Shown in pieces: positions 25,353-33,492 of a DNA stretch of 64,000 nt. Position 1 is the stretch's first letter. Each line of letters begins with the position of its first letter. The position numbers and the translations under genes are program-made. The stretch comes from Streptomyces sp. JHA26 (lineage in GTDB: Bacteria; Actinomycetota; Actinomycetes; Streptomycetales; Streptomycetaceae). Location of the stretch: the NCBI RefSeq assembly GCF_002005565.1, contig NZ_BDJC01000010.1, positions 1 to 64,000 on the forward strand, read 5' to 3'. The notes below the pieces were generated by a model that was given only the letters and a program-made list of their open reading frames with translations, did not search any database and had not been told where the DNA came from.

Positions 25353-25664
25353 TCACGCGTCGGGGTCCTGGTGGTAGGCGTGACGGTCGGTGTGTGGGCC
25401 TCGGGAGGACGTGAGGAACCGGAGGGCCGACGCGACGAGCACGGTGATCAGAAGGGCGACGCTGAGCAGGAAGGTCCATTCGACCCACGCACCGCCGGAC
25501 CGCCCCTTCTCGAACGCTGAGAACAGCCGTGCGCCCACGGGGTAGGAGATCATGCAGACGATGACGAGGGGCCAGAAGGACAACACCTTGAGAGGCTTGG
25601 TCCACGCGGTGAGGGCAAGGGCCACAACAGCGATCAGGGCGACGAGAACATGCATGCGATCCAT
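25353..25664 (-). CDS. Small membrane protein of the regulatory island
   Basis: 103 residues starting at ATG 25664, AGGA seven bases upstream. It has about three hydrophobic helices ('MHVLVALIAVVALALTAW', 'VLSFWPLVIVCMISYPVGA', 'WTFLLSVALLITVLVASAL') and a short His/Asp-rich tail. No family recognised. It follows the ATPase-HTH gene on the same strand by 118 bp. A deleted copy with the same leader and promoter segment sits beside the other sensor kinase (19364-19457), which links this protein to the two-component genes. Confidence 0.7.
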   Translation of the reverse strand: MDRMHVLVALIAVVALALTAWTKPLKVLSFWPLVIVCMISYPVGARLFSAFEKGRSGGAWVEWTFLLSVALLITVLVASALRFLTSSRGPHTDRHAYHQDPDA

Positions 25665-25720
25665 GAGCCGATCCTTTCGCGCGGAATCCGCTGCGATCTC
25701 GGCCACCAGGAGGAATCGCA

Positions 25721-25745
25721 CCTAGTCCGCGAAGCATAGACCCGC
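25721..25745 (-). promoter_or_regulatory. Promoter segment shared with 19507-19528
   Basis: CCTAGTCCGCG followed by CATAGA recurs in front of the intact small membrane gene and its deletion remnant. It lies about 60 bp upstream of the start codon, where a promoter or activator site would be expected. Assignment is by conservation only. Confidence 0.4.
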
Positions 25746-25782
25746 ACGAGGGTGCCGCCCTTCCGCCTGCCGCCCTCGTGCG

Positions 25783-31994: not shown

Positions 31995-32036
31995 ATGCCC
32001 ATGCCCATGCCCATGCCCATGCCCATGCCCATGCCC
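31995..32036 (+). repeat. (ATGCCC)7 hexanucleotide array at a gene start
   Basis: Seven uninterrupted ATGCCC units, each an in-frame ATG for the downstream gene. Change in unit number keeps the frame but changes the number of start codons and Met-Pro residues. Confidence 0.85.
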
Positions 32037-32747
32037 ACAACTGCGATGTCCTCCTCCTGCCCCGTCGATGTCGTCCTCTCACTGCGCCGGCAGAAGACAG
32101 CCCGTCTGCTGCGCACCATGCGCCCGTACCACGTGCTGCCCGCCCTGTCCCACTCATGGGGTTCCGCACCGGCCTACATGTCGCTGCTGCGCAGGCCCGA
32201 CGGACTGACCGTCCTCGATGTGTCAGAGGACGGCGGAACGGACCGACTTGAGCAGCGCGTGCGCGTGCTCAGCACGATCTCCTCGGTCGTGGTGCTGGCC
32301 CCCCGGGACGTGGACGTGGTCGCCACGCTGCGTGCGGGGGCCGTCAACGTGCTCCCCCGGGACACCCCTCCTAGGGAGTTGGCCGGACGGATCGTCGCCG
32401 AACGCAGGTGGATCGATCTCTCTTCGAGGCGTCAACGCCTGCGGGCACCGTCCCGGAGTCGTCCGCAGGTCGTGCCTCACCAGGCTTCTCAACAGGTGTT
32501 GTTGGAACTTCTGAGCCTGCCTTCCCGTGAGTGGTGTTGTCACGATCTGGGTCTGCTGCTCGGCACCGCCGGGGAGCCGGTGAGCAAACGGGCGCTGCAA
32601 GCCCGTGTGATGCGTCTGAACGGACGTCTGGCGCCGTACGGGGTCTCCGTCGACGCCGTACACCGGTGGGGCCGGACCAGGTACACGGGTGTGCGCGAGG
32701 CCGTGCCGTACGAAGTGCCGCTCGCGCAGTCGCCGTTGCGCCTCTGA
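31995..32747 (+). CDS. Atypical receiver plus winged-helix regulator
   Basis: The region before residue about 140 resembles a receiver fold ('LTVLDVSEDGG', 'SVVVLAPRDVDVVATLRAGAVNVLPRDTPPRELAGRI') but lacks the acidic pocket and the conserved Lys (R-D instead of K-D). The C-terminal part looks like an OmpR-type winged helix ('EPVSKRALQARVMRLNGRLAPYGVSVDAVHRWGRTRYTG'). Probably a phosphorylation-independent DNA-binding protein. The start is unresolved: GTG 31908, any of seven ATGs at 31995-32031, or ATG 32046, none with a good RBS. It is divergent from ATPase-HTH copy 2 and convergent with the LuxR-type response regulator. Confidence 0.65.
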   Translation: MPMPMPMPMPMPMPTTAMSSSCPVDVVLSLRRQKTARLLRTMRPYHVLPALSHSWGSAPAYMSLLRRPDGLTVLDVSEDGGTDRLEQRVRVLSTISSVVVLAPRDVDVVATLRAGAVNVLPRDTPPRELAGRIVAERRWIDLSSRRQRLRAPSRSRPQVVPHQASQQVLLELLSLPSREWCCHDLGLLLGTAGEPVSKRALQARVMRLNGRLAPYGVSVDAVHRWGRTRYTGVREAVPYEVPLAQSPLRL

Positions 32748-32808
32748 TCTCGCGCCCCGGATGCGCTGACGACTCGTTCGTGGGAGGCCGTCAGGGAGGA
32801 GCAGCCTG

Positions 32809-33492
32809 TCAGCGGACGGTGGAAGCGTGCCCGACCGGTGTGACCAGGCCGGCGTCGTAGGCCAGGATCACCGCTTGTACCCGGTCACGCAGATGGTACT
32901 TCTCCAGGATATGAGCGATGTGTGTCCTGACCGTGTTCTTGCTGACGTCCAACTCCTGAGCGATCTCCTCGTTGGACAATCCCCGACTCAGCGCACGCAA
33001 CACGTCGACCTCGCGGGCCGTGAGATGCTCCAGCCGCCTGGACGCGGCCCCGACGGCCGGCTGAGGCAGACGGGCGAAGCGGTCCAGAAGCCGCCGAGTG
33101 ACACGGGGGGACAGGACCGCGTCACCGGCGGCCACCATCCGTACCGCCTCCACCAGAGACTGTGCGGGCCCGTCCTTGAGCAGGAAACCGACGGCCCCGG
33201 CCCTGAGAGCGTCCAGGACGTGCCGATCCAGGTCGAACGTGGTCAACATCACGACCTGGGCTTCCGCACCGGACTCCACGATGCGCCGGGTGGCCTCGAC
33301 ACCGTCCGTGCCGGGCATGCGGACGTCCATCAGGACGACGTCCGGCCGCAGGGCGAGGACCTGCTCAACAGCGGAGTCGCCGTCGGACGCCTCACCGACA
33401 ACGGCGATGTCCGGTTCGCATTCGAGGATGAGACGGAAACCGGTGCGGATCATCTGCTGGTCGTCGACCAGCAGAACGCGGACGGACTCCAT
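32809..33492 (-). CDS. NarL/FixJ response regulator
   Basis: 227 residues from ATG 33492 (GGAAG eight bases upstream). The receiver has D10/D11, phosphoacceptor D56 in VVLMDVRMPG, LTTFD and FLLKDG. The LuxR HTH reads 'LTAREVDVLRALSRGLSNEEIAQELDVSKNTVRTH'. It is similar to the regulator at 21827. Likely output partner of the kinase at 28237, though two genes stand between them. Final residues 'VILAYDAGLVTP' are typical of the group. Confidence 0.88.
   Translation of the reverse strand: MESVRVLLVDDQQMIRTGFRLILECEPDIAVVGEASDGDSAVEQVLALRPDVVLMDVRMPGTDGVEATRRIVESGAEAQVVMLTTFDLDRHVLDALRAGAVGFLLKDGPAQSLVEAVRMVAAGDAVLSPRVTRRLLDRFARLPQPAVGAASRRLEHLTAREVDVLRALSRGLSNEEIAQELDVSKNTVRTHIAHILEKYHLRDRVQAVILAYDAGLVTPVGHASTVR

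Follow-up and report, generated by a model that had tools for sequence, protein, structure and literature searches.

Two-component systems of the NarL/FixJ type unite a HisKA_3 kinase with a LuxR-type regulator. STAND proteins are defined by an N-terminal hhGRxxE motif, Walker A, Walker B and a GxP motif, and the MalT/LAL regulators are STAND ATPases that work as transcription factors; MalT has a TPR-like sensor region. Response regulators count as atypical when the receiver lacks at least one of five site residues, in the definition given in PMC12632262. We have analyzed an island of a Streptomyces genome in which genes comparable to each of these classes lie close together, and which the initial annotation took for a single multi-input signalling unit. 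Our preferred reading, with a probability of roughly 0.68, sees in the island a mosaic, with three regulatory modules joined in one Streptomyces lineage and a normal two-component pathway standing beside independent ligand-gated STAND transcription factors.

Organization of the island and its surroundings

The window, i.e., the whole stretch of DNA analyzed, is 64 kb of contig C10 from a genome of 7.34 Mb and is high in G+C. The nearest named relatives are all Streptomyces (S. griseoflavus JCM 4479, CCM_MD2014, NRRL S-37, and 13-12-16), and one of the proteins, ATPase-2, is 96 to 100% identical in four near relatives (loci L071-L074); L074 and genome G350 are probably the same record. No tRNA was found in the window by ARAGORN, and no RNA family reached the gathering score between positions 20000 and 38000. 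As the initial annotation had it, five island genes are present on strands -,+,-,+,- in the list of open reading frames (ORFs), and the stops of the kinase and ATPase-2 are one base apart, a spacing identical in 4/4 near relatives. The strict alternation holds for these five genes and is lost once a small membrane protein gene (25353-25721, - strand; an ORF of 122 aa, or 103 aa from ATG 25664, recognized by its hydrophobic stretches) is counted, since it shares the strand of ATPase-1, 61 bp downstream of which it lies. Besides, alternation of this kind needs no explanation, since it appears in 36 of 927 five-gene windows, in 18 of 77 related loci, as called by a home-made gene caller. The small membrane protein gave no Pfam or NCBIfam match, and among the 77 loci only the four near relatives had a tblastn match to it (E ≤ 1e-6). 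In these relatives, the aligned codons of seven genes are free of stop codons. Pfam domain matches of the island proteins were taken at E ≤ 0.1, neighboring genes came from the home-made caller, which missed the gene of the atypical regulator in some loci, and the context lists of ATPase and atypical regulator loci exclude matches covering <30 to 40% of the query.

A TnpB (OrfB/IS605-type) element (33611-34987, with its gene at 33640-34836, - strand) lies between the response regulator and an Ohr/OsmC gene. It is absent from the same site in the four near relatives, and nothing else in the genome matches it at E ≤ 1e-20, which makes a recent arrival probable. For Ohr, dN/dS against the four relatives was 0.00 to 0.35, at small dS. 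An OsmC-like 5' remnant (23202-23295) matches the intact OsmC-family gene (35404-35498) at 82% in direct orientation, so that the island sits between two OsmC-like copies; similar matches occur in three relatives. Farther along the window there is a 157-bp direct repeat (45040-45196 and 53540-53696, 93.6% identity).

A two-component pair probably split by rearrangement

The sensor histidine kinase (28237-29619, + strand, 460 aa) has both domains of the HisKA_3/NarL class (Pfam HisKA_3, 3.5e-16; HATPase_c, 4.3e-13), and the NarL/FixJ-type response regulator (32809-33492, - strand) matches Response_reg (1.9e-27) and GerE (5.7e-18). A search of 392 Streptomyces genomes retrieved 16 kinases at E ≤ 1e-95, two of which belong to the window genome and to G350 (99%). 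The other 14 (nine loci, L196-L204, and five loci, L032-L036) all have an orthologue of the regulator (65 to 75% identity) adjacent, codirectional and directly downstream. In HisKA_3/NarL systems such an arrangement is frequent, if not obligatory. With a wider set of kinases (22 genomes, 20 loci returned), a regulator of the same kind was next door in 19/19 loci other than our own. Judging from this gene neighborhood, we regard the kinase and the NarL-type regulator as cognate partners.

In the window clade, a handful of related soil Streptomyces, the order is in contrast kinase (+), ATPase-2 (-), atypical regulator (+), response regulator (-). L071-L074 share this order, and the two partners are ca. 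3.2 kb apart on opposite strands in the window and in 4/4 relatives. The ancestral operon would have been broken, most simply, by one inversion with a breakpoint between both genes; including the regulator, the inversion would have flipped it and set ATPase-2 and the atypical regulator between it and the kinase. No intermediate of such an inversion was found. The histidine region of the kinase and the first helix of the regulator are almost unchanged in comparison with four orthologues, and dN/dS of the response regulator against the four relatives was 0.00, 0.09, 0.11 and 0.55, at small dS. The first module would thus be an ordinary two-component system, in which the kinase autophosphorylates on the HisKA_3 histidine and then phosphorylates the NarL-type regulator. 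Elsewhere, the intact operon adjoins genes of ABC transporter type (G087, G133 and G189, the last by appearance only) or genes resembling TetR and MFS genes (G109 and G032); none of these kinds was found beside the kinase or the regulator in the window. A search for the kinase among 31 genomes listed as relatives gave our own genome alone at E ≤ 1e-90. Another HisKA_3 kinase with an adjacent, codirectional NarL-type regulator is located at 19665-22498, ca. 3 kb from the island.

The two ATPases are probable STAND-type switches

ATPase-1 (25783-27969, - strand) and ATPase-2 (29621-31693, - strand, 690 aa) share a STAND-type ATPase part, a middle domain and a C-terminal helix-turn-helix (HTH)-like region, and are 43% identical over 693 alignment columns. 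A longer ORF of ATPase-1 is listed from 28164; two relatives have a 1-bp insertion at 28137, inside this extension, so the start is probably GTG 27969, which gives a protein of ca. 728 aa. AAA_16/nSTAND profiles match both proteins (Pfam, E ≤ 0.1); ATPase-1 is above the AAA_16 cutoff (34.7 versus 32.6 bits) and ATPase-2 below it (28.8), and nSTAND_NTPase5 is below its cutoff in both. The family has the complete set of STAND motifs (hhGRxxE, Walker A, Walker B and GxP): FxGRxxE, GPxGxGK, the Walker B Asp and GGxPLAL vary hardly or not at all among 49 aligned sequences, which are without exception at F20, G22, R23, E26, G48, P49, G51, G53, K54, D105, G189, P191 and L192. This alignment, A4, used for structure prediction, was made from the two window proteins and 46 of the 77 loci; the tree had 59 rows. 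The model of ATPase-2 obtained from the 49 sequences (mean pLDDT, 80.5) had the STAND protein 6mfv as its top Foldseek match, followed by 8bob chain C, which, going by its title, may be a regulator of the maltose system. We take these for STAND-type switches of Actinomycetota, and the earlier reading of them as switches was a fair one. Equally, the two are paralogues with P-loop and Walker B, as had been claimed; the C-terminal HTH is weaker than claimed. Profile matches were found only in ATPase-1 and all below cutoff (HTH_24, the best, at E 0.028, HTH_23 and Sigma70_r4_2), ATPase-2 had no HTH profile match at E ≤ 0.1 in Pfam, and neither protein matched a GerE/LuxR-type HTH up to E 0.1. In ATPase-2, the assignment comes from a C-terminal motif common to ATPase-1 and from helices in the model.

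The family is actinobacterial and large: one scan confirmed 354 related stretches, and at least 24 of 150 Streptomyces genomes, our own included, had a match (7 candidates scored per genome). A plasmid search gave seven records with distant homologues (29 to 37% identity). The window genome has two copies, and one might think of ATPase-1 and ATPase-2 as a local tandem duplication working as a hetero-oligomer, given that two full-length paralogues share a 6-kb stretch and that 7 of the 73 loci outside the window clade also hold two or three ATPases. The tree makes this improbable: ATPase-2 clusters with those of other species (support 98/93) and not with ATPase-1 alone, and ATPase-1 stands next to this cluster with a long branch (1.13) and weak support (89/52). 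For ATPase-1, dN/dS against the four relatives was 0.42 to 0.91 and, for both ATPases where computable, 0.38 to 0.95, noisy values at small dS that would allow for weak constraint.

The neighbors of the ATPases change with the clade. An FAD oxidoreductase family was near an ATPase in 17 instances, and P450, SnoaL-like and RPE65-family genes were also found. In Streptosporangiales, an ATPase is flanked on one side by an OmpR-type two-component pair and on the other by genes for Asp/Glu racemase, Mur ligase and D-Ala-D-Ala ligase, a van-like cell wall neighborhood seen in L122 (7085-15105, tested there with Pfam) and also in L112 and L143. In G189, a STAND ATPase, a gene homologous to the atypical regulator and a LuxR-type gene are found beside contractile injection genes (tail sheath and Pvc16_N). 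G068 has an ATPase, a LuxR-like gene and a Pvc16_N gene near one another, and the LuxR/ATPase setting of G133 is similar. The contractile injection loci are L207 (G189:C54), 7333-16710, with L167, 10444-12468, and L059, 16639-17322. These largely metabolic or regulatory neighbors, together with the conserved C-terminal HTH-like motif, argue against the ATPases being Avs-like anti-phage or conflict STAND proteins instead of transcription factors. We consider such a role highly improbable, even with nSTAND_NTPase5 matching 49/49 sequences at E ≤ 1 and Avs4 (8dgf) at rank 33 among the Foldseek matches. PADLOC likewise gave no match (E ≤ 0.01) for the ATPases, the kinase or the atypical regulator.

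As for their action, the ATPases would most likely resemble MalT: a ligand would open the nucleotide-gated switch, the C-terminal HTH-like region would then attach to DNA, and local genes would come under control. Inverted repeats are present in intergenic regions. When the sequences upstream of 47 ATPase genes were compared for palindromic operators, a dyad was common to at most 4 of them, versus 2 to 3 in 10 shuffles, and no operator motif emerged.

A middle domain with a probable GNAT-like fold

The best candidate for the ligand sensor would be the middle domain, an unannotated region that follows the ATPase part in the model (residues 355-535 of ATPase-2; 30089-30631, - strand). Its predicted order of elements, between residues 367 and 527, is helix-helix-strand-strand-helix-strand-helix-strand-helix-strand-strand. 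GNAT enzymes have the same order of secondary structure elements. Using the whole 690-residue model as the query, VIA-align aligned the N-acyl amino acid synthase FeeM (2g0b) with Z 13.6, rmsd 3.5, 174/188 residues and 10% identity. This row, at rank 49 of 50, spans residues 112-548, so that residues outside the middle domain are also aligned; the other rows are AAA proteins, and all 50 are within one Z of each other. The list being filled by the AAA domain, its lack of further GNAT rows is uninformative. The middle domain alone (31 sequences) had no convincing match in Pfam, NCBIfam or PDB sequences; no GNAT family profile was matched, and the best hit was HlyC (E 0.037, in 2/31 sequences). 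Considering the model, a GNAT-like fold is likely and a FeeM-like function possible.

It is tempting to go further and to see in these ATPases a widespread undescribed class that combines, in one chain, a STAND switch, a GNAT/FeeM-fold acyltransferase-like domain and a DNA-binding domain, that binds or makes an acylated small molecule to direct transcription, and that has the pseudo-receiver regulator described below as a frequent local partner. As a whole, we hold this to be a rather unlikely proposal. In the literature searched (including eLife, PMC8910723 and PMC12632262), we recognized no description of a STAND/GNAT-like/HTH architecture, which is no proof of its being unpublished.

An atypical regulator that recurs near the ATPases

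The remaining gene (32046-32747, + strand) codes for a protein with no Pfam match. A profile built from its family matches OmpR-type regulators (KdpE, E 0.0018), and when a low-confidence model (pLDDT 60) was compared by Foldseek, KdpE was again the top match, though with a low TM-score, which suggests a receiver-like domain followed by a predicted winged helix. With the receiver assigned in this way by profile and model, the protein qualifies as atypical: the acidic pair is absent, the Lys is replaced by an invariant Arg and the Asp is kept. Asp75 and Arg122 (at the place of the Lys) are invariant in 16/16 pseudo-receiver sequences, the first two candidate positions for the acidic pair are Ser/Thr and Leu/Met in the 15/15 rows with letters there, and one Asp adjoins the lost pair in 4/16 family members. 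In the window protein, the phosphorylation site is without its acidic pair, its Thr/Ser and its Lys, so that, by sequence, this protein is unlikely to be a target of the kinase. It would act constitutively or through a ligand or partner. Just upstream of the gene, or at its N terminus, is the hexanucleotide repeat (CCCATG)7 (31992-32033), with n = 7 in the window versus 3, 3, 5 and 6 in the relatives. The regulator probably starts at ATG 32046, outside the repeat; each unit adds an in-frame ATG, which may tune start choice or N-terminal length.

Of 392 Streptomyces genomes, 16 were found to have pseudo-receiver genes of this kind, which occupy 19 places in all. An ATPase lies within 6 kb in the window, in G350, in G140 and G304 (LUP47B type) and in G189, and, among named loci, in S. 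phaeochromogenes and S. alfalfae. An ATPase is held somewhere by 8/15 pseudo-receiver genomes, and 4 of these 8 genomes with both (three lineages) have the two within 6 kb, when ca. 0.02 genomes would be expected under a simple uniform model. ATPases were present in 8/15 pseudo-receiver genomes versus 22/147 others (Fisher p 0.0015), a comparison that ignores relatedness and genome size and is possibly inflated: 7 candidates per genome were scored in the 150-genome survey and all of them in the pseudo-receiver genomes, so that the counts of the survey are lower bounds. This is the only association repeatedly seen outside the window clade, and the part of the proposed unit that linked ATPase and atypical receiver stands insofar as the pair recurs in other lineages; at 14 of the 19 places no ATPase was found in the fetched stretch, some being on short contigs.

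These 14 places also lend something to the view that the genes are functionally unconnected, a rearrangement-prone region having gathered regulators and mobile DNA with the pairing of ATPase and atypical receiver as a by-product, as do the clade-dependent neighbors and the entry of the TnpB element into the window copy only. We find this doubtful. Proximity within 6 kb appears in four lineages (the window clade, the LUP47B type, S. phaeochromogenes and the G189/S. alfalfae type), as against ca. 0.02 genomes expected among the 8 holding both, and in G256 the next called gene to the pseudo-receiver gene is a different STAND-like gene (NB-ARC + TPR). In the mosaic that we prefer, ATPase-2 and the divergently placed atypical regulator would form the second module, and ATPase-1 with the small membrane gene the third.

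A probable mosaic rather than one unit

If the kinase, the response regulator, the atypical receiver, the two ATPases and the membrane protein made up one multi-input signalling unit, the set should travel together. Of the 77 named ATPase loci, none but those of the four near relatives, L071-L074, had all the genes. The initial annotation had itself named homologues that occur singly at random positions as what would speak against it, and this is mostly what was found: 66 of the 77 loci have a single copy in the fetched stretch, with differing neighbors, and only 11 have two or three, 4 of them in the window clade (L080 and L082 are two single-copy stretches of one genome, ca. 16 kb apart). 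The kinase-regulator pair is also found without an ATPase in four orthologous fetched loci of 12 to 20 kb (L062-L065), and no kinase orthologue was present in the fetched flanks (≤10 kb) of the 73 ATPase loci outside the window clade. The main fact for a single unit outside this clade is G189, where one 64-kb contig carries two ATPases, the pseudo-receiver gene and the intact kinase-regulator operon, the last at ca. 8 kb from an ATPase, an arrangement hardly due to chance placement. Within the clade, the window and the four relatives keep the whole island in the same order with open reading frames, so joint function there is possible. Overall, the single unit is very unlikely, and we favor the mosaic.

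A compact block of regulators can therefore resemble one circuit and yet probably be a patchwork. The island also offers a natural example of two-component partners that a rearrangement has separated and that are apparently retained all the same. A by-product of the analysis is possibly weightier: a large family of actinobacterial STAND ATPases, found beside metabolic, cell wall and contractile injection genes, with an unannotated middle domain of possibly acyltransferase fold. If the GNAT/FeeM-fold reading is true, such an ATPase would turn an acylated small molecule directly into transcription.

Comparison with known systems

The kinase and response regulator agree with NarL/FixJ-type systems in domain make-up and in the conservation of the partner, and differ from them in that, in the window clade, the genes are ca. 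3.2 kb apart and on opposite strands. With MalT/LAL regulators, the window ATPases have in common the STAND ATPase module and a C-terminal HTH-like region; unlike them, they lack a GerE/LuxR HTH match and have a predicted GNAT-like middle domain where MalT has its TPR-like region. That domain is similar to FeeM (PDB 2g0b) in its predicted GNAT-like order of elements, but the identity is 10%, there is no profile match, and it sits between the ATPase and the HTH-like region. Finally, like the atypical OmpR-type regulators GlnR, JadR1 and SimReg1 of Streptomyces, the window regulator keeps the Asp, lacks other site residues and has a predicted winged helix, whereas proteins of its type have no Pfam match and, in several genomes, have a STAND ATPase or LuxR-type protein encoded next to them.
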